NCBI GenBank assembly: GCA_025766275.1
Contig: JAFKAC010000059.1
Span: 1-64,000, forward strand
DNA from: Lactarius indigo
Taxonomy: Eukaryota; Basidiomycota; Agaricomycetes; Russulales; Russulaceae
DNA length: 64,000 nt
Direction: 5' to 3'
Shown: positions 3,160 to 21,548 of the stretch, piece by piece
Layout: every line of letters starts with the position of its first letter
Numbering within the stretch: position 1 is the first letter of the stretch
Program-made: the position numbers and the translations under genes
Notes under the pieces: generated by a model
What the model saw: the letters and a program-made list of their open reading frames with translations, nothing else
Told to the model about the DNA's origin: nothing
The model's database searches: none

Positions 3160-3692
3160 TGTTGATAAGTGACCCTTGCGCACTTAGCGGCTCATATGGA
3201 CCGGACTTGCAGCATGGACTGCTGTAGATTAGATATACAGGACTTGTAGATTAGATACCTTTTGATCTGTACAATCTATTACCTATCATTGCGTCACCTA
3301 TGACATCATGTATTATGATATCATCTTGGTCTGGACACTTCTTGTTCTATACGCCTTGTTCTCCATATGCACACTCCTTTGTCCTGTTGTAGAACAATGC
3401 GTCCCTTGTATTCTGTGACCTATAGTTACTTTCCTTGTATTAGTGTCACGCCTCTGTACAAGTATAAGTAGACTGCTTGTACGCCCTGGTCCACATCAGT
3501 TCTCTCACTGCTGTGTGCCAGGTATGTCTCCTCCTCTGTAAAATACCATCATCAGTTCTCTCACTGCTGTGTGCCAGACACCCTCTGCTTCACTGCTTGA
3601 CATTCCCCTCTGCTGCTAACCAGCTTGCCACTAGTATCTCACCACAGACCCTTTGCCTCTGTGAGTACTGGTTCTGTCTATGCTGTTCATCA
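3160..3692 (+). repeat. 5' LTR of copia element
   Basis: It starts TGTTGATAAG and ends with CA. It matches the 3' LTR over 533 bp with one difference. Near the middle of the LTR's 3' half it has a TATA-like stretch (GTATAAGTAG, about 3461-3470) that could drive element transcription. Inside the LTR a short direct repeat built on CATCAGTTCTCTCACTGC occurs twice (about 3493 and 3549). Confidence 0.96.
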
Positions 3693-3710
3693 GGTTATGG
3701 GCCCTGGTGC
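3693..3710 (+). promoter_or_regulatory. Primer binding site, half initiator-Met tRNA type
   Basis: The 18 bases GGTTATGGGCCCTGGTGC start at the first base after the 5' LTR. Their reverse complement fits the anticodon arm of an initiator methionine tRNA (GGGCCCATAACC, with the CAT anticodon) rather than its 3' acceptor end. Priming from a cleaved 5' half of tRNA-iMet is known for Drosophila copia and fungal copia elements. The tRNA assignment comes from memory of the tRNA sequence, not from a search. Confidence 0.8.
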
Positions 3711-4463
3711 CCTAGCCACTCCACTTGGCTGGTCACTGTCTTCCTAGGAGGACACACCAGGCTAAGGTCTGTCTGGGGCCTTACCAGCCTTGCCCAAGGC
3801 AGAGACAGTGGGGCGCCACTTGTCTCTGCTAAGGAACCTCCTATACATGTACTGCCCAGTAGTCCTACTTTCACCCCTACTGTTTTCCTAGCCCCTGCGC
3901 TATGCGCAAGGAGACTGGGTCTGGTAGCCCTTAATCAATATCCAGGTGTGCATGGCCCACTGGGCTGTGTATTGTGGAGCTTAGCGCCAGCTGTCTCTGG
4001 TGCTCCACACTGGGCGCAGGATCTCCTCACCATGGGAGTGTAAAACCTGGTTCAGGCTCTGGGGGGTGTTCACCTTATGGTGTTCTGCAACCAGATACCT
4101 GCCTTGTAGCGGCAATGGGAAAGGATTCAGTAAAGCCACTTGTGGCGATGAGGCAACCAACAGGCCGAGGAGGCTGAGGTAGACAGCCTTGGGCTCTGAA
4201 AGCAATCCCTTCACCTTCCCCCTGACGCAAACCATTTGAGCTGTGTCCTAGACACATCCTGGCTGGCAGCTAGCTCATGGTATGGCAAAGGGACTCTCCA
4301 ACCTGGGCCTAGCCCTTGTATCACTGGCATACTATCAGGAGGCAGGACGCGTTAGCGTTCTGGCCTTACAGAATCACAGACAGGAGTGGTACCCCCTATC
4401 TTTATGTCTTGCAAATTGAAGCACTATCGCTGACTGCTCCTCGGCGATAGATAAATCATCCCA

Positions 4464-7400
4464 ATGTCTTCTCGCGCACCATCTCCCACTGGCTGCTGCC
4501 GGTGCTCTGCTACTGCGGGGGCTCTACGCTTCCCCCACTGGATCCTCACCCTCCGCTCGTATCTCTGCTGCCTATGGCGCAACGTTCGGCATGCCCTCTG
4601 GCATTCGCCTTGAACAGTTTGATGGCACTCACTGGAATGAGTGGTCTGGGACATTGAAGCCATCCTCACGCTGCATGAAGCAGAGTGTGTTCACCCTCCA
4701 CCATGGACCAGTTGATGTCCTCAAGACGAATGGGACTCAGTACAACGTCGGGCGAAGGCATACTCCGCCTTTACCTCAAACCGACGTCTACTCCCTTGTC
4801 GCCGACAATGCCGCCTATCCCACCTTTAAAGCCAAGTGGGACAAGCTCAGAGACGTATACGCTGGTGCTTCGGGCAGCACCACCATCTTCAATCTGTGGA
4901 TCAATTAACACAAGCCCGCCTTGACGACTCCGCACCCATGGCCTCTCAATTGGCCAAGCTCAATGAGCTGGGTTGCCCTTTCCAACGCACAGATGGGTGT
5001 CACTGACACTCAATTCTGTCTCATTCTCCTCCACGCACTGCCGCCCTCTTATGAGGTGTTGGCCTCACCATCCTTGCCAGTGGGGCCCCTCTGCACTCAA
5101 GCACGCTGAGATCATAGCGCGCATAGTGTCGAAGAAGCTCGCCGCTCCGGGCCCTCTGGCTCCTCCCTCAACAAGGTGGCCCCCGTCAAGTCGACGGGCA
5201 AGAAGGGCAAGAAGGACCACTCTGGTCTAACTTGCCACTACTGCAACAAAAAGGGCCATATCAAGCCTGATGCAGGAAGAGGAAGAAGGATGAGGCTGAC
5301 GCAAAGGAGAAGGAGAAAGCAGGCAACAAGGCTGCCAATAGTCATGTCCTAGTACCTACCACCGCCTCCATTAAGGAGGTCGAGAGCCCAAGATAGATGG
5401 GCCTCTGAATCAATCGGTGTTGCCTTGTATGCTGCCTCGCGTGTGCGTTGGATGATGGACAGTGGTGCTACACACCACATCACCCACATCGGTCTGACTT
5501 CAAGGACTACACCCCAACTAAAGGCACTGTACGCCTGGGTGATAAGTCCACTATAGACCAAGTGGGTGTCGGGTCTGTCGTCTTTACAACGAGCCAGGGT
5601 ATCTCTATCACCCTCAGTAATGTGCTACACCTACCACAGGTGAAGACGCGCTTCTTGTCGACGCGCGCCCTAGCACAAAAGGGTGCTGAGATTGCCTTTG
5701 ACAGTGGCTCATTTAAAATATCTGTCAACCAAAAGTGTGTGGCCAAAGGCTACCTTGAGGACAACCTTTACTGGTTGGACGCAGCCAGCGTCGGCCTCAA
5801 CGCCCACACAAAATCAAGTGCTGCCACACTTGATATCTGGCATCAACGCATGGGACACATCTCCTCTGCGGCGCTGAAGGCGCATGGTCCCTCTGCCACT
5901 ACTGGCATGGACATAGATAGCTCTACCACGGCCCACACAGTCTGCCGTGGGTGCGAGATGGGCAAATCCACTCGCCAACCCTTTTCTGCGTCCTCCAACA
6001 AGAGGACAACTCGTCAATTTGAGATTGTGCACAGTGACCTCGCCGGTCCTATGCAGACTCAGTCCCTGCAAGGCTCGACGTACACAGCCACCTTCATAGA
6101 CGACCACACTAAGTTCACTGTGGTCCACTTCCTTAAGTCGAAGGACAGTTTGCTAAGTCGCTGCAGATGTATTTGGCCTGGGGTGAAACCCAGTCTGGCC
6201 ATAAACTGCGCGCTCTGCACTCTGACCGCGGTGGCGAATACATGTCGAGTGTCACGCAGGACATTCTTAAGCAGAAAGGGATAGAGCATCACCTCACGAT
6301 GCCGGGTTCACCACAGTCCAACGGGAAAGCCGAGCGGTTTAACCGCACCATTATGGATAAGGCAATGTCCATGCTCCACACAGCTGGCATGTCTAAAGGC
6401 TTCTGGGAGCATGCAGTGTGCGCAGCTGTGCACATCTATAACCGCTCTCCAGTCCGTGGGCTTAAGTGGCGCACTCCTTATGAGCTCTGGCACTCTGGCA
6501 AAGTGCCCGATGTCTCACATCTTCGCGTCTTCGGATGCAAGGGGTACATGCACGTACCCGCTGATAAGCGTCGCAAATTGGATGCGAAGGCCATTGAGGT
6601 CACGCTTATTGGGTTTGAGCCCGAATCTAAGGGCTATAAGCTCTGGGACCGCTCAACCCGCTCCGTCCGAGTGTCCAGGGATGTGACATTCGACGAGAGT
6701 AGCTTCCCGTCCCTCAGGGTGTTGAGACACACCCCACACCTTCACCACCAGTCGTGCCTAGCACAACAGTGACTGCCGTGCCTCACCCGCCGGCGTTACC
6801 ACCAATGCGAGCCCCTCCCCTGCACACTCCAGTAGTAGTGAGGAGGAGGATGTTGAAAAGCTCCTAGACCCCCACAAGTCCAACCACGCCCCACTCCACC
6901 ACCTGCTCTGCCAGCCCTGCCCACCACACCTAAACGTGAGCAGACCACTCCCACTTCACCCCCGCCGCGTCCTAGTGCAACGCGCATTATGCGCCATGTC
7001 CCTCCTCCCTCACCAGAAATGCCTGGGGGATTTGAGGATCGTGCACAGCGTAGTCAGCTGTTGCGCGAAATGGACAATGCACCAAGGCGCAGTGCTCGTG
7101 CCCCTGTCCCTAATCCGCGTTACTTCAATGCGGACAATGCGGCATGGCGCGGCAGGCGTCTGGGGTATGCGGAGTTATTGGCTGCTGCCTTTGTGGCCGA
7201 GACCCTGCAACTTATGCAGAGGCCATGCGGTCTGCAGCTGCAGATGAGTGGACTAAGGCGTGTCAGTATGAAATGGACGCCCTAGCTAAAATGGGACTTG
7301 GGAGTTAGTGGATCTCCCGCCTAATCGCAAGGCAGTAAAATCCAAATGGGTCTTTAAGCTCAAAGCGGATGGCCGCTACAGAGCTCGCTTGGTGGCTAAG

Positions 7401-8747
7401 GGATTCACGCAGATCCCTGGCGTAGATTTTGATGAAACCTTCTCTCCCGTCGCACGATTTGAGTCGCTACGTTTACTTCTGGCGTTGGCCGCGCTGGAGG
7501 ACTGGCACATCCATCAGATGGATGTTAAGTCTGCTTTTCTCAATGGCGTGCTTGACGAGGAGATATACATGGAGCAGCCACAAGGTTTCACTGTCACTGG
7601 CTCTGAGACGAAGGTGTGTCGCCTGGTTAAGGCGATCTATGGTCTCAAACAGGCCTCCCGCGCATGGAACTTGCAATTCCATGGAGTGCTCACTGCACTC
7701 GGCTTTAAGCGGACGTTTGCTGATGCTGGCATATATGTGATGCCTCAACGGGAGGGGTATGATCCACTCTTCGTTATTGTCTACGTTGACGACATCACTA
7801 TACTGGGTCCCTCGCTGAGTGGTATCAAGCGTTTGAAGTCAGATTGTCTGAACGCTATGAGATGACAGATCTCGGGGAGATAGAGTCTTATCTTGGTATG
7901 CGCATTGTGCGCGACCGCTCCCTTAGACGCATCGAAATAGATCAGTCTGGCTACATCAAGGATGTCCTTGAACGCTTTGGCATGTCTGATGCCACACCAC
8001 ACAACACACCCTTGCCCGCTGGTGCTGACGAGCACCTGGTTAAATATACGTCGCAGGCAACTGCCTCAGATATTTCCCACTACCAATCCTTGATTGGGAG
8101 TCTGCTTTATGTGCAGATTGGCACTAGGCCAGATATCTCCTTCGCTGTGTCACGTTTGGCGCAGTACGCAGCGAACCCTTCACCACAACATCTGCGACTT
8201 GCGCAGTATGTCCTGTCCTACTAGTGGGAACTATGGATATGCGTATTGTCTATGATGGCGCCAATGGCGATGGCCTTCACGGCTACACTGATTCCAGTCT
8301 GGCTGATCAGACTGACGACCGCCACTCCACCTCTGGTTATGTGTTCCTACTAGCTAACGGTGCAATAAGCTGGTCTTCGCGCAAGCAAAAGACTGTTGCC
8401 CAAAACACAACGGAAGCGGAATACATGGCCATGACCGACGCGGCTAACCAGGCTGCGTGGTATCAGAGCTTCCTCACGGAACTCGGGTACGAGGTCGACG
8501 ACCCCATCCCACTTCATGGTGACAATAAGGGTGCCATTGACTTGGCCTTGAACCCTGTCACTGGGAGACGGTCTAAGCACATTGCCATACGGCATCATGT
8601 CATTAGGAGTACATCGAAAAGGGGACCATCACCCTCATTAGAACTCCTACTGTGATATGGTTGCGGACGGCTTTACACAAGTCACTACCGCGTGTCCTGC
8701 TGCAGAAGCACAATGATGACATGGGACTTGTTGTACTTAGATTGTAG
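4464..8747 (+). pseudogene. Copia gag-pol polyprotein, multiply frameshifted
   Basis: Homology runs from a likely start at 4464 to a stop at 8745-8747. Order of recognisable parts: gag with the FDGTHWNEWSG motif (about 4615-4650), a CCHC zinc knuckle CHYCNKKGH (about 5231-5257), aspartic protease DSGAT (about 5457-5474), GAG-pre-integrase HHCC, integrase core with its catalytic acidic motifs (about 6019-6360), reverse transcriptase (7308-7865) ending in YVDD near 7785, then RNase H (about 8224-8620). The reading frame changes many times and there is an in-frame TAG at 8222. Several breaks look like loss of one base from a short run, for example near 4652, 5270 and 8606. The product cannot be one polyprotein as written. 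Breaks may be real decay or residual consensus errors in a multicopy repeat. Confidence 0.93.
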
Positions 8748-8752
8748 ATCAC

Positions 8753-8759
8753 GGGGAGA
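8753..8759 (+). promoter_or_regulatory. Polypurine tract of copia element
   Basis: The purine run GGGGAGA lies directly upstream of the 3' LTR, the expected primer site for plus-strand DNA synthesis. Confidence 0.75.
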
Positions 8760-9292
8760 TGTTGATAAGTGACCCTTGCGCACTTAGCGGCTCATACGGA
8801 CCGGACTTGCAGCATGGACTGCTGTAGATTAGATATACAGGACTTGTAGATTAGATACCTTTTGATCTGTACAATCTATTACCTATCATTGCGTCACCTA
8901 TGACATCATGTATTATGATATCATCTTGGTCTGGACACTTCTTGTTCTATACGCCTTGTTCTCCATATGCACACTCCTTTGTCCTGTTGTAGAACAATGC
9001 GTCCCTTGTATTCTGTGACCTATAGTTACTTTCCTTGTATTAGTGTCACGCCTCTGTACAAGTATAAGTAGACTGCTTGTACGCCCTGGTCCACATCAGT
9101 TCTCTCACTGCTGTGTGCCAGGTATGTCTCCTCCTCTGTAAAATACCATCATCAGTTCTCTCACTGCTGTGTGCCAGACACCCTCTGCTTCACTGCTTGA
9201 CATTCCCCTCTGCTGCTAACCAGCTTGCCACTAGTATCTCACCACAGACCCTTTGCCTCTGTGAGTACTGGTTCTGTCTATGCTGTTCATCA
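8760..9292 (+). repeat. 3' LTR of copia element
   Basis: This is the 533-bp partner of the repeat at 3160-3692, identical except for C at 8797. It is followed at once by the right copy of the target duplication (9293-9297). Confidence 0.96.
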
Positions 9293-12200: not shown

Positions 12201-12909
12201 AGTAGCTAGGTGCTAATTATTACAATTGAGATAGTCCCCAATAAATTATCAAGGGGACTAAGCAATGTGCAATAATTGACAATTACTAGTAATTATTGAT
12301 AATTTGTTCTTGCTAGCATGGGAGGTTTTTCCTGATGAGCTGTCTGTGTACTACTGTCCTGCTTCCTGTGTCATTTGTTTGCACTGTACATCACATGGTT
12401 CGGGAGTGTCATGCCAGTTGTTTACTGCTGAGGTATGAGTGACTCTGGTTCAGGTTTGTTTGTCGAATGCGTTGTGCCATGTTCACTAGCTAGGAAAAGA
12501 GGTCTACTCTTATGTCACAGTTCAGTTGTAGCCCAAAGGCAATGGGCAAGCAGAGTCGAGGGTCACATATTAAGTGACCAGAGGGAGGGAGAACTTGGCA
12601 GGCAAGTGAGAGGGGAATCTAAAGGTTTAAACAAGTAGACTGTATTCAAGGACTAAGAGTAGACAAAGTATTGTACTACTCAGACTACTGGTCTTTATAC
12701 TCTTACAAACTGGTGATTTTTGGGACTCTTTTCTGTGGTTACAAAGACTTGGAAGTGAGCTGGCATACAAGAGACGTGGCATGGGTACTGGGCTGGCAGA
12801 AGACTCGGATGTGCTGGCAGGGAGCCTTGCAGGTGGTCAAAAACCCCCACAACCAAAAGGCTCATTCACATGCACAACCAATCTCCAGAGCCACCGACTG
12901 TGTATACTA
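9298..12909. other. Gene-poor spacer with low-complexity tracts
   Basis: No gene can be supported in these 3.6 kb. The stretch has a run of 20 C (9529-9548), CCCA/GGGT-rich sequence around 10,190-10,300, a degenerate GTC/ATC/CAC-rich segment (about 10,440-10,960) and an A12/T12 snap-back pair (about 11,433-11,466). Short open frames here are low in complexity and show no domain. A 25-bp motif at 12,312-12,336 is the inverted near-copy of one at 2875-2899. Confidence 0.6.
9529..9548. repeat. Poly-C run of 20
   Basis: Twenty consecutive C residues, followed shortly by another C5 run. A G/C homopolymer of this length is prone to length variation and to sequencing error, so the count is approximate. 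Confidence 0.85.
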
Positions 12910-13332
12910 TGACTTTGTTCTACCTTTAGCTATATCCTTATTGTGATGTCACTATGATATCATCTTTGCTTGGACTTTCTTTGTTCTGTGCTCCTTATTC
13001 TCCATTTGTGTATTCCTTTTGTCCCAGATGAAGAACAATGTCTTATACTCTGTGACCCTATGTTACATCCCTTGTACTAGTGTCACCCCTGTAAACAGTA
13101 TAAGTAGTGTAGCATGTACACTGCTGGTCCACATCAGTTCTCACTACTTATGTGCCAGGTATGTTTCTCCCTTCAATCCTTTGATGTCTAACATCAGTTC
13201 TCACTGCTTATGTGCCAGACTCTTTGCTTCAGTGCAACTTCCCTGTTCACCTCTGCTTCCAGCTTACTTGCATATCTCACCACATTTCCCTTGCCACTGT
13301 GAGTATGCCCTTTCTATGTATGCTGTTCATAA
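12910..13332 (+). repeat. Diverged copia LTR fragment (solo-LTR-like)
   Basis: From about 12,910 the sequence follows the last 420 bp or so of the LTR at 3160-3692 in the same orientation. Shared landmarks, with substitutions and small gaps, are TATGATATCATCTT, AGAACAATG, AGTATAAGTAG, CTGGTCCACATCAGTTCTC, a doubled GTGCCAG and a terminal TGCTGTTCAT. The first ~120 bp of the LTR are not clearly present, and there is no second copy or internal region. It is best read as an old solo LTR or LTR fragment of a related family. Confidence 0.85.
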
Positions 13333-13490
13333 TTGTGTTGTAGATTTGTCTCAGACTCTCAGTAGTCAGTTATGATGCCTCAGTAAGCAGTAATTGTCAT
13401 GGACTTTTATAACATCAGTCAGCAGTAGTAATGTATCACCAATGGTTGGCCCATGAATTATAAAAGTCACTCTGCAAGTGGATGATTGGA

Positions 13491-13909
13491 TTGTTGTGTT
13501 CACATAGGGGGCAGCTTTTGAATACATAAATGTAAGTTTTGATGATGATCTGCAGGTAAACTGTCTGATTGTTGATATCCCATGTGCAGTTAATAGTGAT
13601 ATGACTTAAGGGTGTAATACAGTCCATGATTTGTATCACTGGGATGTTGTACTGTGATTTTGAGCTGAAGAGCTGTACTGTACAGCATGGCTTGTTCGCG
13701 TTGCTCACTCGCCACTGTACAGTACAGCTCTTCAGCTCAAAATCACAGTACAACATCCCAGTGATACAAATCATGGACTGTATTACACCCTTAAGTCATA
13801 TCACTATTAACTGCACATGGGATATCAACAATCAGACAGTTTACCTGCAGATCATCATCAAAACTTACATTTATGTATTCAAAAGCTGCCCCCTATGTGA
13901 ACACAACAA
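13491..13909. repeat. Perfect 195-bp inverted repeat with 29-bp core
   Basis: Bases 13,491-13,685 and 13,715-13,909 are exact reverse complements over 195 bp. The 29-bp spacer (13,686-13,714) lies at the symmetry point. The right arm is followed at once by CCCTAACCCTA and then TAGGGTTT. Because of the palindrome, the same peptide-like frame reads on both strands, which is not evidence of coding. The spacer is 25/29 identical, in reverse orientation, to the spacer of the otherwise unrelated inverted repeat at 16,807-16,997. Confidence 0.98.
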
Positions 13910-14192
13910 ACCCTAACCCTATTTTAGGGTTTGATGTTAACCTTAACCTTAACTCTATGTGCCTAATATATGGTCATATTGTTGGCTGGGCATTGGTGTG
14001 CAGTATGCATCTCAGATCTACTATGTAGAGCAGAGTGTTTGGTGCATGTGTGCATGGAAACAAATCAGACATCAATGACACTTTAGTAATATACCCTGAT
14101 AATAATGTTTTAACTGTCACAGCATGCACATTATATGTGAACATGTTATTAGCACATGGTACATTGTGCATGTATTAAATATGTATAGTAAT

Positions 14193-16564
14193 ATGGTGGT
14201 GTATGTGTAAGGAGTCTAGGACTCCTTTTCTCAGTGTTATGCTTGATAAATTGGGCTATAAGAGGGTGGTGTGCGTGTGAGGAGTCTAGGACTCCTTTTC
14301 TCAGTGTCATACTTGAGAAATTGGGCTATAAGAGGATGGTGTGTACGTGAGGAGTCCTGGACTCCTTTTCTCAGCGTTGCTCTGGAAATTTGGCTGTAAG
14401 AGGGTGGTGTATGTGTGAGGAGTCCTGGACTCCTTTTCTCAGCGTTGCTCTAGAAATTGGGCTGTAAGAGGGTGGTGTACATGTGAGGAGTCCAGGACTC
14501 CTTTTCTCAGTGTCACTCTGGAAATTTGGCTGTAAGAGGGTGGTGTACGTGTGAGGAGTCCTGGACTCCTTTTCTTGGTGTCACTCGGGAAATTGGGCTG
14601 TAAGAGGGTGGTGTACATGTGAGGAGTCCTGAACTCCTTTTCTTGGTGTTGCTCTGGAAATTTGGCTGTAAGAGGGTGGTATACATGTGAGGAGTCCAGG
14701 ACTCCTTTTCTTGGTGTCGCTCGGGAAATTGGGCTGTAAGAGGGTGGTGTATGTGTGAGGAGTCCGGGACTCCTTTTCTTGGTGTTGCTCTGGAAATTGG
14801 GGATGTAGAGGGTGGTATACATGTGAGGAGTCCGGGACTCCTTTTCTTGGTGTCACTCAGGAAATTGGGCTGTAAGAGGGTGGTGTATGTGTGAGGAGTC
14901 CGGGACTCCTTTTCTTGGTGTCGCTCTGGAAATTGGGGATGTAGAGGGTGGTGTACATGTGAGGAGTCCTGGGCTCCTTTTCTCAGTGTCACTCTGGAAA
15001 TTGGGGATGTAGAGGGTGGTGTATGTGTGAGGAGTCCGGGACTCCTTTTCTCGGTGTTGCTCTGGAAATTTGGCTGTAAGAGGGTGGTGTATGTGTGAGG
15101 AGTCCGGGACTCCTTTTCTCGGTGTTGCTCTGGAAATTTGGCTGTAAGAGGGTGGTGTACGTGTGAGGAGTCCGGGACTCCTTTTCTCGGTGTTGCTCTG
15201 AAAATTTGGCTGTAAGAGGGGGGTGGCGTACATGTGAGGAGTCCTGGACTCCTTTTCTCGGTGTCACTCTGGAAATTGGGGATGTAGAGGGTGGTGTACA
15301 TGTGAGGAGTCCTGGACTCCTTTTCTCAGTGTTGCTCTGGAAATTTGGCTGTAAGAGGGTGGTGTATGTGTGAGGAGTCCAGGACTCCTTTTCTCGGTGT
15401 TGCTCTGGAAATTTGGCTGTAAGAGGGTGGTGTACGTGTGAGGAGTCCGGGACTCCTTTTCTCAGTGTTGCTCTGGAAATTTGGCTGTAAGAGGGTGGTG
15501 TATGTGTGAGGAGTCCGGGACTCCTTTCTCGGTGTTGCTCTGGAAATTTGGCTGTAAGAGGGTGGTGTACGTGTGAGGAGTCCGGGACTCCTTTTCTTGG
15601 TGTCGCTCTAGAAATTGGGCTGTAAGAGGGTGGTGTACATGTGAGGAGTCCTGGACTCCTTTTCTCAGTGTTGCTCTGGAAATTTGGCTGTAAGAGGGTG
15701 GTGTATGTGTGAGGAGTCCGGGACTCCTTTTCTCGGTGTTGCTCTGGAAATTTGGCTGTAAGAGGGTGGTGTACGTGTGAGGAGTCTGGGACTCCTTTTC
15801 TCAGTGTTGCTCTGGAAATTTGGCTGTAAGAGGGTGGTGTATGTGTGAGGAGTCCGGGACTCCTTTCTCGGTGTTGCTCTGGAAATTTGGCTGTAAGAGG
15901 GTGGTGTACGTGTGAGGAGTCCGGGACTCCTTTTCTTGGTGTCGCTCTAGAAATTGGGCTGTAAGAGGGTGGTGTATGTGTGAGGAGTCCGGGACTCCTT
16001 TTCTCAGTGTCACTCTGGAAATTTGGCTGTAAGAGGGTGGTGTACGTGTGAGGAGTCCGGGACTCCTTTTCTCAGTGTTGCTCTGAAAATTTGGCTGTAA
16101 GAGGGTGGTGTATGTGTGAGGAGTCCTGGACTCCTTTTCTCAGTGTCACTCTGGAAATTGGGGATGTAGAGGGTGGTGTATGTGTGAGGAGTCCTGGACT
16201 CCTTTTCTCAGTGTCACTCTGGAAATTTGGCTGTAAGAGGGTGGTGTGTACATGAGGAGTCCGGGACTCCTTTTCTCGGTGTTGCTCTGAAAATTTGGCT
16301 GTAAGAGGGGGGTGGTGTACATGTGAGGAGTCCTGGACTCCTTTTCTCAGTGTCACTCTGGAAATTGGGGATGTAGAGGGTGGTGTATGTGTGAGGAGTC
16401 CTGGACTCCTTTTCTCGGTGTTGCTCTGGAAATTGGGGATGTAGAGGGTGGTGTACGTGTGAGGAGTCCTAGACTCCTTTTCTCAGTGTTGCTCTGGAAA
16501 TTGGGCTATAAGAGGGTGGTGTACATGTGAGGAGTCCAGGACTCCTTTTCTCAGTGTCACTCTT
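14193..16564. repeat. 68-bp minisatellite array, about 35 copies
   Basis: A unit of 67-70 bp (mostly 68) repeats head to tail about 35 times. Each unit carries a short palindrome of the form GGAGTCCNGGACTCC whose central base varies, followed by a stretch ending in AATTTGGCTGTAAGAGG or AATTGGGGATGTAGAGG. Because 68 is not a multiple of three, the minus strand reads through as a three-frame cycle of about 68 residues with few stops. The long open frames here (for example 14,513-15,301) are by-products of the repeat. Confidence 0.97.
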
Positions 16565-16754
16565 GAGTTTGGGTTGAGTTAATTGAGTCTTTGGACATGT
16601 GTGCACCTAATACATTTTGGCATGCATATGGAGTATTTGATGTACACATGTACAGAAACCTATAAGAATTGCATGAGCTCTAGGTGACTGCCTTAAGTCC
16701 ACCTGAGGCCCATACCTAGGCAAAGCCTAAACCCCGCCTACAATGAACACCACC

Positions 16755-16798
16755 CCTACGTCCACCCCTAGGGGTACTGCAAAGTGGCTCATAACCCT
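16755..16798 (+). repeat. 44-bp direct repeat, copy 1
   Basis: These 44 bases match 18,521-18,564 with one difference (G/A at the sixth base). The two copies bracket the 79-bp inverted repeat, the 89-bp inverted repeat and the hairpin array, about 1.77 kb apart. They contain the palindrome CCCCTAGGGG. Confidence 0.95.
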
Positions 16799-16806
16799 AA
16801 ACCCTA

Positions 16807-16997
16807 AGATGTGCATAAGGAGGCTTCCATTATCTGTGACCCATCTGTAATATACCAATGGCAAGCACAATGTGCTGCTCTGTATGCTGGAGAGTGAGCA
16901 GCGCGAGCAATCCATGCTATACAGAGCAGCACATTGTGCTTGCCATTGGTATATTACAGATGGGTCACAGATAATGGAAGCCTCCTTATGCACATCT
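16807..16997. repeat. Perfect 79-bp inverted repeat with 33-bp spacer containing the shared core
   Basis: Bases 16,807-16,885 and 16,919-16,997 are exact reverse complements (79 bp). The 33-bp spacer holds a 29-bp segment (16,888-16,916) that matches the spacer of the 13.5-kb inverted repeat at 25 of 29 positions on the opposite strand. The arms of the two repeats share no sequence I can see. The left arm is preceded at once by CCCTAAACCCTAA. Confidence 0.98.
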
Positions 16998-17210
16998 CAC
17001 AGATATGATTCCATGACAAAATACAGACTATAATATTACTACCTGCCTCGCAAGTTATAAAGGCTGTCAACATCACATCACACCTTTTCACCTTACCTAA
17101 CAATATAAACCCCCAACTCCACAAAGCAAATATTTCACTGGTAAGAGACAAAGACACAATCTAACACCAATCTATAATCAATCAATTTCACTGATAAACA
17201 CGAGCCTCTG

Positions 17211-17527
17211 AAGTTGATCTGTATCAATAGAAGGGTGATATTTGTACTTGAAATATATGTTTTATTGTATTTCGAGTTGAATGGCATGTTCAGGGTGCCC
17301 ATACGATCCCGCGTTTATCCATTGTGTCTAAACGCGGGTCAAGCTATGGCCCCTCATTTATTTATTCAATATGTATATATGGGGACCATGTAATAATGTC
17401 CCGCGTTTAGGCATGATGGACAAACGCGGGACCGTACTGGCACCCTGAATATGCCATTCAACTCGAAATACAATAAAACATATATTTCGAGTACAAATAT
17501 CACCCTTCTATTGATACAGATCAACTT
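17211..17527. repeat. 89-bp inverted repeat enclosing two 31-bp hairpin modules
   Basis: Arms 17,211-17,299 and 17,439-17,527 pair over 89 bp with two mismatches, both of G:T type. The 139-bp spacer holds two copies of a 31-bp near-palindrome (17,308-17,338 and 17,400-17,430) that begins CCCGCGTTTA and ends AAACGCGGG. The same module forms the tandem array immediately downstream. Confidence 0.95.
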
Positions 17528-17531
17528 TGGA

Positions 17532-17791
17532 GGCCCACATTTGACCATCATGGTCAAATGTGGGCCAAGTAATCATCCCGCATATGACCATGATGGTCAA
17601 ATGCGGGCCAAGTAATGGTCTCGCGTTTGACCATGATGGTCAAACGCGGGCCAAGTAATGGTCCCGTGTTTGTCAATGATGGCCAAACACGGGCCAAGTA
17701 ATGGCCCCGCGTCTGACCATCATGGTCAAACGCGGGCCAAGTAATGGTCCCGCGTTTGTCAATGATGGTCAAACGCGGGACCATTACTTGG
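17532..17791. repeat. Six-unit 43-bp tandem array of 31-bp hairpins
   Basis: Units start at 17,534, 17,577, 17,620, 17,663, 17,706 and 17,749, exactly 43 bp apart. Each is a 31-bp hairpin (14-bp arms, 3-base centre) plus a 12-bp linker CCAAGTAATGGT or a variant of it. Changes in one arm are usually matched in the other: ACAT/ATGT in unit 1, GCAT/ATGC in unit 2, GTGT/ACAC in unit 4, GCGT/ACGC in unit 3. The centre is TCA in units 1 and 5 and TGA in the others. After the last unit the linker appears inverted (17,780-17,791). Confidence 0.97.
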
Positions 17792-18831
17792 ATATACGCG
17801 GTAACCCTAAGTCAAAATAGACCCAGAACCCACAGTGAACCCTGAACCCAGTTATCATTCGTCTATATATAATTACATGTCCGGCGCTAGTCCGGACCGG
17901 AACGAAGTAGTACCTAGCAGTGGGCGCTAATCTGAGATCTGATCTCACGGAGATCTCCGCCGGGAATACGGGTGCCAGGGGGCTGGCGCAGGCACTTAGG
18001 CACAGGGGCACAAGGTACAGGCCCGAGATGCATCTCATGGGAATAAACCCCAGGGGATAATTCAAGGGATTCCCCTTTACCACGCACGCAAGGTACGTCC
18101 ATTCCCGAGTCACCGCATTGACTCACTTACTTTTGGGGATGTCCGGACCTTGTCCACGGAGTTTCTTATCAGTTGTATGTACAGTTTACCACTAGTCAAT
18201 CCATGGGGATCTGACGGTCTTGCGAAACTAGTGACATGTACATTTTGGGTGCGTCGTAATTCCCGTTACTGACTTTGTCAGCTTTCAGGGTAGGCTGTAG
18301 TACACCACCGAAGGTCGACCTGACCCCCCACAGATTATCCGCTGAATTCCCCTCACGGGGCAGACGGTCCGGTTCACTTACCATTTTAGACGATCGTATC
18401 CTGAAGAGCATAAAAGCGAAAGGATTGCATTGTTGGGATCCCCCAGCAGTACCTTGGTACGTCGTCCTTCCCGCCACTTCAGTTTAACACACCACCTTCG
18501 GTGGTGTAGTACAGCCTCACCCTACATCCACCCCTAGGGGTACTGCAAAGTGGCTCATAACCCTATTGAGCCGGTGCCATGGCTTTCAACCTCCGTATAA
18601 CCCTCTCACGACCGGCACACCAATGGGTCTAAATTGGGGTTGCATGGACCTTGAATTACCAAACCCTCAAACAGGGTCAGGGACGTTTGGCAGTGTACCT
18701 ATCCTATATAATTTCTTTCGCCACCTGCGCTTGAAGACCGGCGTTGTATTACGTACTGCCCCGGAATAAAATCGATTCAAAAAAAAAAAAAAGAACCCAC
18801 TTGTATCCGAGTCCCGACCAATCATTACTGT
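17792..18831. other. Spacer before the DUF6535 gene, with a fourth inverted repeat
   Basis: No gene is supported. The spacer holds an imperfect inverted pair of about 27 bp (18,288-18,314 and 18,495-18,522, built on GTACACCACCGAAGG), a small hairpin ACACCACC-TTC-GGTGGTGT near 18,489, the second 44-bp direct repeat and an A13 run near 18,780. Confidence 0.6.
18521..18564 (+). repeat. 44-bp direct repeat, copy 2
   Basis: Partner of 16,755-16,798 with 43 of 44 bases identical. Sequences beyond both ends differ, so the repeat stops sharply. Confidence 0.95.
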
Positions 18832-21548
18832 ATGGCTGCCCGGCAACAACATACGCGCCAGAATGTTACCCCTGCTCCTGAAAAGCCTACATATAGTGAC
18901 TCCTCTTGGGCCATCTTCTCTATGTACATCGACAGGGCACAAACAGTTGACAAGGAATTTTTCGATAATTGCGACGGACATGCAAATGACATCCTCATCT
19001 ATGTACGCTTCTGTTGTCAATCTCCAGGGACCTGATTGCTTATGGTGCTCTCTCTTTTCAGGCTGGCCTCTTCTCCTCAACGGTGGCTACTTTCATCGCT
19101 ATCAGCTACCAGAACTTGCAGCAAGATCCAAATGTCATCACTCAGTCCCTCCTCGCACAGATATCCCAACAACTTTCTACTTCCACCACCGGCGGTACCA
19201 CCAGTCCCGCAATCTCATCCGTCCAAACTTCCTTCACCCCGGCGGCATCGGTGGTATTTATCAACTCGGTCTGGTTCCTCAGCCTCGTACTCAGTCTCAC
19301 ATGCGCGCTCATGGCCACACTCCTGCGACAATGGGCCCGCAGGTATCTCCAGATGGTTCAACGGAACCATGCCCCTCACGTCCGTGCGCATATTCGGGAA
19401 TACTTTGCACGAGGTGCACGCAGGTTCGGGATCTCTTGGCTTGTCGATGTCCTGCCATTCCTTCTTTTCATATCGATACTCCTGTTCTTCGCCGGACTCG
19501 TCGTCTTCGCCTTCCGAGCCAATCACGTCGTCGCATATTTCACACTCTCAATTGTGGCGTTCTGCCTTCTTTCGTACTTCACCCTCACACTGATGCCACT
19601 CTTCTCTCGTGACTGTCTCTATTACACGCCCTTGACATCCCTCCTTTGGCCTTGTGCTCATAAGGTCTTAATCTTCCTCTTCTCGACTACCCATCTCTGT
19701 GCGAAGCATTTACACGAAAAATGGGGAGCGGTTAGTGGGGCCGTGGTAGAGTTCCAGAACCATCAAAAGAACAGGATCAAGTCCTTCCCAGAAGGGATGA
19801 TCTCCAATCTCGAGAACTCAGCGAAACGCATCTCGATGGAAATATACAGTTCGGCGCTCGGCTGGACGCTCAGCCAGCTCGACGAAGACCACGAACTCGA
19901 AAATTTTGCCGCAGGGATCCCCGGTCTGTATGACTCTGGGGCCCTTACCACGTCCAACGACCCCGATGATCCACACCCCACTATTCACACCGTCCTCTCT
20001 GTCTTACCTGGGCCGACGAGCTTTAACGAGCCACTCCCATGGAGCATCATTGGGCTCGCACAGCGGGCAATGGCGAGCGACCTTTCAGAAACCCTCCGGC
20101 GACAAAGAATCAAGGCGTGCCTGAAGGCGCTCTACTACATTCCTGGCGCAATTCGTGACGTACTCGCTCCGTATGCTGCCGGGAAGCACTATTGCCTGGT
20201 GGCCCTACCACTCCTGAACACCCCCGAGTCGCTTGAGATCATCGAGGAGTTGTGGGACACCCCCAGGGACGACGTCGCGCTTTCTGTACGATGTGCTGCG
20301 ACGGTGATCGCTGCGTTCATGATTACCCCACCACGTCGTACGCTGGACAATTTCTTAGAAAACGTCCCATTTATCTGGGACGATGATGCCGGCAAGAAGT
20401 TCCTGTCGAATCGACTTCGCCTAGGCCCCGGCCCCGGCGCGAACGATGGCGCCGTCCCTAGCGTGAACGATAACGTAGTCTACGAGGAGGACGAAAACGT
20501 TCTCAGCGACGCTAGTGTTGACGTTGCTACCGACGCCGATTTGCACAGCGATGATGCGCGGCTTCAGAACCTTGGGCGCTTCCTCGCGGACATCGGGAAC
20601 GGGATCAAGTACATGGGCATGCCCTGGTTGACATCGGGCAGCGCGCAACCAATCCACCAAGAGCGCCGTACTCTCTTCGATGCCCGCAATACGGAACAAT
20701 ACCGGGCCGGTAGCGGCATATCCAATCAACACGGCGACCGCGCTTCACCTGCATTCGTTTGTGCCGCGCAGCAGGACCTCATCACGCTCACGCTCGAGAT
20801 ACTCACACGGGATTATGTCGCAGCCGCTGCTCCACCGCAATTCGAGGTGCTTCATCGCGCTCACACAATGCTCCGTCAGCTGGTACATACACAGACGCTC
20901 TCAGAGACGCTAGAGGAGTCACTGTCGTCGCTTTTAATGTTTACAGATCGGAGTCTGCCTTTGCCACCGAGTTTCTGGACACCTTCGCCACTGCCTTCGA
21001 CACGGGTTTTAAGGCAAATGTCGGCCCCGTTGCAGTCACAGACGCAGACATCGTTGCGGACTCAGGGGGCTCTGTCGACGGTTCGATCGCTGGGCCGGTC
21101 GCTGGATTGGCCGCGAACAAGGTCGCTGGCACAGTTTCTTGTGCGGTGGCCCCTGTGGTTAGCATCGTCATCGCCGTCATCACTGCCGCAGTTCGTGCCA
21201 CAGTCGCTGGCGCAGTCGCTCCCATGGCCCCTACTACTACAAGGACCATCACCGCCGACACCATCTTCGGTGCATGCGCAAGTTACGTCAGGGGAAACGA
21301 CTCAAGGGCAAGCCGGGGACGGCGTCGAGATGGTTACACGTGCGCCGCAACCTGTCGTGGAGGGAATTGGCGTTCTTCCGCAGATACAGGACTCGCCGAC
21401 GACGCACGATGGTCCTTTTACAACCCCTACGCTACAGGTCGTATTGGCAAGTCCCTCTCGCTTGTCTCAGGTGTCGCCGTCGTCGGTGCAGCGCGCTGGC
21501 TCTCCTGGGGACCAGGGCCTTTCAGATTCTCCAGGCGAGCATGTGTGA
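18832..21548 (+). CDS. DUF6535-family multi-pass membrane protein
   Basis: The model joins 18,832-19,002 and 19,062-21,548 (59-bp intron, phase 0) and gives 885 residues. The N-terminal part reads YSDSSWAIFSMYIDRAQ, then DILIY joined across the intron to AGLFSSTVATFIAISYQNLQ. This is the acidic/WDIY-like start plus first membrane helix that I associate with DUF6535 proteins of Agaricomycetes. Further hydrophobic helices lie near VFINSVWFLSLVLSLTCALM (about residues 105-125) and in the stretch LLFISILLFFAGLVVFAF onward (about 175-230). The middle is helical and soluble; the last ~200 residues are Pro/Ser/Gln-rich and probably disordered. The family's function is unknown. The gene directly abuts the palindrome region, and the long overlapping frame at 20,759-21,781 is a shadow. 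Confidence 0.88.

Follow-up and report, generated by a model that had tools for sequence, protein, structure and literature searches.

Two palindromes in one stretch of Lactarius indigo DNA, which we call A and B, share their centre and not their arms. We consider it probable, though by no means settled, that both belong to duplicated repeat blocks, that their arms are kept alike by arm-to-arm copying and that one ancestral centre has been fitted with new arms. In the one genome studied, the palindromes are found at at least 37 places and in three arm lineages (A, B1 and B2). Intermediate states are present among them, namely a change on one arm, a change on two arms, a flipped centre, hybrid arms, a truncated arm and a rebuilt centre. 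Long palindromes are fragile and hard to follow, and these intermediates make the steps in the upkeep of perfect palindromes readable.

Anatomy of the two palindromes

The window, that is, the whole stretch of 64,000 nucleotides that was analysed, holds palindrome A at 13,491-13,909, with arms complementary at 195 of 195 positions and 29 nt in between, and palindrome B at 16,807-16,997, with arms (16,807-16,885 and 16,919-16,997) complementary at 79 of 79 positions and 33 nt in between (Table 1). A first-pass annotation, made from the letters of this DNA, had described two inverted repeats with perfect arms around a common 29-nt centre, and both observations hold. The 29-mers of A and of the window's B match at 25 of 29 positions, the best of 300,000 single-base shuffles in either orientation being 20 of 29, and the core pattern with at most three mismatches is found at two places within the window, the centres of A and B (mean of 100 shuffles, 0.00). 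The arms had also been called unrelated, which is correct beyond the centre, where the match falls to 2/15, but not directly beside the 29-bp core, since similarity runs about 14 bp further outward (9/14 on one side, 11/14 on the other). These ~14 bp on each side of the core form a short inverted repeat at the centre that A and B have in common.

In a BLAST comparison of palindrome A with nine B loci, the sole match was this 57-bp centre, at 75-79% identity and in three loci, and the A and B arms aligned no better than shuffles (z 0.3-0.4) in a permissive test, which does not pick up the inner 14 bp either. Between the core of A and those of the three B copies compared, there are 4, 6 or 8 differences in 29 positions. 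Paired changes are seen in the inner complementarity, C-G vs A-T between A and B and T-A vs C-G between B1 and B2. The short core stem appears in the predicted DNA folds of A and of L052, a B2 copy, and the minimum-energy fold of the window's B centre differs. When 13,300-17,900 was compared with known structured RNA families, 19 matches at E up to 0.1 were obtained, and none of the 19 reached the curated gathering score.

Table 1 Features of palindromes A and B in the window.
Feature	Position	Strand	Remark
A left arm, 195 bp	13491..13685	+	At at least 14 places in the genome
A core, 29 nt; complementary ends TGGC/GCCA around 19 nt	13686..13714	-	Short stem present in the predicted fold
A right arm, 195 bp	13715..13909	+	Abuts CCCTAA-like repeats
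B left arm	16807..16887	+	Cut 81 bp from the core in the window copy; the other 22 B copies are longer-armed
B core, 29 nt; complementary ends TGGA/TCCA around 19 nt	16888..16916	+	Predicted fold of the window copy is without that short stem
B right arm	16917..17194	+	16,917-16,997 paired; the remainder is arm sequence whose partner is missing in the window copy
Junction of two repeat modules in CCCTAA-like sequence	16795..16807	+	Joined only in the window copy among the places scored
B flank, minisatellite side: further inverted repeats and 43-bp tandem array	17195..17791	+	

A copia-type LTR retrotransposon occupies 3160-9292 of the window, with 533-bp LTRs that are 99.8% identical and with Pol_BBD, gag_pre-integrs and RVT_2 domains between them. 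LTR-like fragments of this element's family lie at 12953-13330 of the window and in the flanks of L034, L052 and L091, so that A, B1 and B2 palindromes all have such fragments within a few hundred bp, at differing distances. A 68-bp tandem array of 34.7 units (14188-16557) is situated between A and B, and further inverted repeats with a CpG-rich 43-bp tandem array (17204-17791) adjoin B. Open frames with DUF6535 and DUF6698, which are families of mushroom-forming fungi, are located at 18990-21548 of the window and at 427-884 of L091.

Copies across the genome

The genome was searched in one assembly of 90.3 Mb and 291 contigs, of which the window is part. Palindrome A was found at at least 14 places, each with both arms, the second arm amounting to 186 of 195 bp at C221. 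Palindrome B was found at at least 23 places, counted once each with both strands listed, and contig C235 ends in a 103-bp fragment that is not among the 23. The arms are thus not specific to their locus, as the first-pass annotation had supposed; the same arms recur for A and for B, an outcome that it had itself named as speaking against its reading. Both flanks are common to the ten A copies that were read (the copies on C112, C14, C238 and C221 were scored and are not among the ten), and the B flanks are likewise common among the copies read.

The genome-wide search for the core with a test of its flanks, which the same annotation had suggested, gave 22 matches at up to three mismatches, and each of the 22 is at the middle of a palindrome whose arms measure 81-558 bp. 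With a looser 22-mer there were 55 matches, of which 31 are A or B by tally and the remaining 24 equal the 24 of the reversed control; one repeated 22-mer excepted, the core was not seen above control level outside the A and B palindromes. This 22-mer, three mismatches away from the core, is present ten times, on ten different contigs, and several of these contigs also bear A or B; as it makes up 10 of the 24 matches outside A and B it may be a third family. One scan of viral contigs for a 22-mer returned three exact matches, two of them nearly alike, which by eye were not palindromic in the 70 bases on either side, and this candidate was dropped.

Of the 23 B places, 17 are no more than 50 kb from where a contig stops, in zones that hold at most 32% of the genome; for A this applies to 6 of the 12 places on contigs of known length, five of these being at 13.48-13.49 kb. 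The clustering of B places near contig ends and the recurrent end distances make it likely that the A and B blocks are subtelomeric, judged by the contig ends, and a search for four perfect TTAGGG units found none. The five contigs that stop 13.48-13.49 kb from an A copy are C281, C24, C247, C143 and C268, in three others (C269, C193 and C172) the distance from the end to a copy of B is 14,635 bp, and on C274 a copy of B sits 12,690 bp from either end, as if such contigs were broken at shared points. The blocks holding A and B would have been duplicated around the genome, probably in subtelomeres, and the palindromes would have been carried along with them rather than hopping alone.

Joint change of the arms

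The B copies were sorted into B1, which comprises nine copies together with the hybrid L036 and the window's truncated copy, and B2, which comprises 12 copies including L089, L091 and L092. Across B1 positions 3 to 262, 32 alignment columns (22 substitution and 10 indel columns) split B1 from B2, each identical on both arms, and not a single column splits the lineages on one arm only. This count covers 20 of the 23 B copies, with L031 (truncated), L036 (hybrid) and L089 kept apart, the last departing from the B2 consensus 16 times on its left arm and three times on its right. The arms are therefore alike within a B copy and differ between lineages, L036 and L089 being the exceptions: B2 arms pair at 344 of 344 positions in six copies, and the mean between lineages is 26 differences in 262. 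At the two positions next to the core, the arms disagree in 19 of 19 copies of the B1 and B2 groups. With these two positions set aside, substitutions between the arms number none in 13 copies, one in seven and 13 in L089 (21 copies, tallied by subtraction, with L091 and L092 cut at other centre points).

Within the lineages, nine columns vary. Four are private substitutions present on both arms of their copy (L059 at 61, L092 at 66, L037 at 191 and L034 at 216), and five are one-armed in some or all of their carriers. At positions 181 and 193, six copies are changed on the left arm alone and L041 is changed on both, and one-arm changes were also seen at 82 (L059) and at 257-258 (L038, L039 and L040). 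The less even copies are L036 (277/299 paired), L089 (336/342 with six gap openings), L051 (551/556) and L059 (339/341). The left arm of L036 has the B1 state at the first four of the 32 columns and the B2 state at the other 28, and its right arm is B1 at 32 of 32. L036 would be a hybrid whose arms have not yet been evened out. Such a hybrid, and likewise the single flank type found at both ends of L051, are what recombination between arms would be expected to give.

From these patterns, it appears that B arms are copied onto each other, repeatedly and partly recently, with one arm repeatedly serving as the presumed template of the other. The first-pass annotation had considered that the arms might be kept identical; their perfection points that way, and the joint change of the B arms agrees with it. 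With gaps, the right side of B1 can be aligned to the B2 arm all the way to the end of the latter at 346 (L034, L052), which suggests that the B palindrome is probably older than the B1-B2 split. Growth of the arms from 290 to 346 and then 558 bp by fold-back copying was also considered and is unlikely, as the 346-bp state looks older and the two flanks of L051 are of one type.

In A, the arm has no variable site among the ten copies read, which is not significant (2.3 expected, P(0) = 0.10), and the idea of an unusual conservation of the A arms was given up on this ground. In three A copies, whose centres measure 37 nt by coordinates, one arm is 1 to ~4 changes off the query by score and the other is identical to it.

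The window copy of B, with its left arm ending 81 bp from the core, is the truncated one. The sequence to the left of its junction matches 17 other places, where the match stops at query base 236-244, and B arm copies elsewhere begin at query base 248, or 246 in one case; both modules are joined only in the window copy (40 of 42 candidates scored). The right side of the window copy bears the minisatellite flank, which in B1 copies is left of the core. With one arm cut 81 bp from the core and continued by different sequence, this copy shows that arm loss happens in B.

Flipped, rebuilt and lost centres

Relative to its flanks, the A core has one orientation in eight and the other in two of the ten copies read. 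For B2 the ratio is five to four among copies that have the core as well as both types of flank, and five to five with L091; ten B2 copies match the L052 flank at 98.9-99.9%, the five flipped ones at 99.0-99.7%. The spacer is thus present in both orientations between near-identical flanks in A and in B2. This was not seen among the nine regular B1 copies, which share one core orientation with L036, the window copy having its minisatellite on the other side.

The centre has also been rebuilt or lost. In L091 it is palindromic almost throughout, with pairing that leaves a loop of just 7 nt, and L092 has lost the core and repeats an inner-stem sequence. Despite this, the arms pair at 346 of 346 and 344 of 346 positions, respectively, so strict conservation does not hold for the core, and the notion that it is required for perfect arms was ruled out by these two copies. 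In 4 of the 14 A copies no core was found within three mismatches, the centre being 37 or 13 nt by coordinates. The ten A cores read carry five changes, four of which are CpG transitions by eye, compared with 12 variable columns in 1,008 of one flank and none in the arm; at equal rates, five of 17 changes in the A core correspond to P = 3.5e-5. CpG decay may explain this excess.

The joint arm changes, the flipped centres and the palindromic centre of L091 are together marks of arm-to-arm copying. Either the polymerase would switch templates across the hairpin, or the arms would undergo gene conversion and crossing-over with each other; both predict the patterns seen, and the data do not separate them.

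Origin of the unrelated arms

Arm-to-arm copying is an already known process, and by itself it does not account for the presence of two unrelated arm pairs on one centre. Divergence between B1 and B2 is alike in the core (4/29, from a B1 copy that has a private core change) and in the arms (26/262), with small numbers in both, so arms as old as the split of the A and B cores should still align. The A and B cores are near to each other, yet the arms align like shuffled sequence and BLAST links the palindromes by the 57-bp centre only, which argues that the different arms are probably the result of a replacement and not of slow divergence. Gradual divergence from one pair of arms is unlikely for the same reason, the arms matching for only ~14 bp outward and being shuffle-like elsewhere. 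We also considered that A and B might occupy one homologous place beside the same LTR, and rejected this because the LTR-like fragments are at differing distances from the palindromes and because B1 has a fragment where the B1 and B2 flanks otherwise align; by eye, we read the fragments as separate insertions.

The centres of A and B would then descend from one centre of ~57 bp (the core plus ~14 bp on each side), and either the A or the B centre would have been given new arms, through recombination or by being truncated and then copied anew. Re-growth of a truncated copy, such as the window's B, from the inner stem is a possible route, and recombination of the centre into another palindrome would do equally. 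A more far-reaching version, which we regard as speculative and rather unlikely, takes the shared centre as a palindrome nucleus, i.e., a core hairpin of ~57 bp that outlasts the truncation of its arms and re-grows them by fold-back copying of adjoining DNA, so that a single inherited centre would bear one set of unrelated arms after another. With sequences from a few related strains, it could be tested whether the centre of a palindrome survives longer than its arms.

The first-pass annotation had proposed that the arrival of the core made the arms: a core hairpin lands or survives at a place, fold-back copying inverts the neighbouring DNA, and one core comes to have different arms. The centre that A and B have in common, with nothing beyond ~14 bp on each side, agrees with this, as do its position as the sole BLAST link (75-79%, three of nine loci), the shuffle-like arms (z 0.3-0.4 in the permissive test) and the B1-B2 comparison (4/29 and 26/262), by which arms dating from the split of the A and B cores would be expected to align even now. 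There are precedents as well, as far as the consulted parts of the sources go, in the Tetrahymena rDNA and yeast palindromes seeded by short inverted repeats (PMC3734650) and in ODIRA, where a short inverted repeat is a possible start of inverted copies (PMC10766183). However, no core was found beside one un-duplicated arm, and there is no single-arm locus among the 14 A and 23 B places: all 14 A places are two-armed, one arm being cut at C221, and so are the B places except for the window's truncated copy and the contig-end fragment on C235. Moreover, two arm sets were found and not many, and the flanks of each family are shared in the copies read, so that each family traces to one event. The proposal is therefore doubtful as an account of A and B.

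Three further explanations fare less well. A fold-back or MITE-type transposon family spread by transposition would be in line with the multiple copies and the inverted-repeat build, and two stop-to-stop frames (119 and 103 aa) overlap A, though neither matches a Pfam family. Against it, the flanks are common to the copies read (10 of the 14 A copies), no target duplication was visible by eye at the ends of the arms, which were taken as the ends of the element, and between A and B it is the middle that is kept and not the ends. The first-pass annotation had already pointed out this difference from a transposon with fixed ends and a variable middle, and we consider such a family highly improbable. 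Another possibility is that something binds the core, or that it has some other function, and that selection preserves it in two unrelated palindromes; this could be read from the paired changes in its short inner complementarity and from the only three CpG of 12,900-14,180, all of which sit inside the A core. Template switching gives paired changes too, however, at least one of the three CpG is absent in five of the ten A cores read, and the centre is not constant, with 4 of 14 A copies having a different one and 2 of 23 B copies having it rebuilt or missing. The core CpG were set aside as proof of function, a CpG-rich minisatellite being nearby, and we give selection on the core very little chance. 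Finally, an assembly artefact from collapsed or folded reads has to be weighed, since fold-back reads and polishing are able to create or perfect palindromes, and polishing could even out arms. The 37 places in consistent lineages make this scarcely credible, and the one-arm changes that persist in some copies argue against it as well.

Comparison with known systems

Arm-to-arm copying within duplicated blocks, with one re-armed ancestral centre, can be compared with several known cases. On Y chromosomes, gene conversion between palindrome arms keeps these near-identical while lineages diverge; those arms are far longer than the arms of A and B and bear genes. A literature search by title and start of abstract, with subscription journals mostly outside its scope, gave no shared-core fungal palindromes among the matches listed.

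Template switching has been connected with stem maintenance in RNA genes, according to the part of that study consulted (PMC8794818). In nematomorph mitochondrial genes, perfect inverted repeats of up to 284 bp have been described, with template switching as a possible cause of their concerted evolution (PMC6649704). The long perfect arms of A and B resemble these, whereas the nematomorph repeats are mitochondrial and coding, and the passages available to us contain no shared centre with unrelated arms. The Tetrahymena, yeast and ODIRA cases mentioned above concern, in the parts consulted, large palindromes and amplifications (PMC3734650, PMC10766183); the arms of A and B are a few hundred bp long, and no un-duplicated ancestor of them was found among the 14 A and 23 B places of the one assembly searched.

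In Saccharomyces cerevisiae, template switching between inverted repeats has been reported to homogenise their arms and to invert the spacer (PMC8604942). Both of these hallmarks are seen here, arms made identical in B and a spacer in both orientations in A and B2. The yeast repeats with spacer inversion, as tabulated in the part of that report available to us, combine 10-16-bp arms with 2-5-bp spacers and lie inside genes, whereas the fungal palindromes described here have arms of 195 to ~350 bp around 29 nt and lie in multi-copy blocks.
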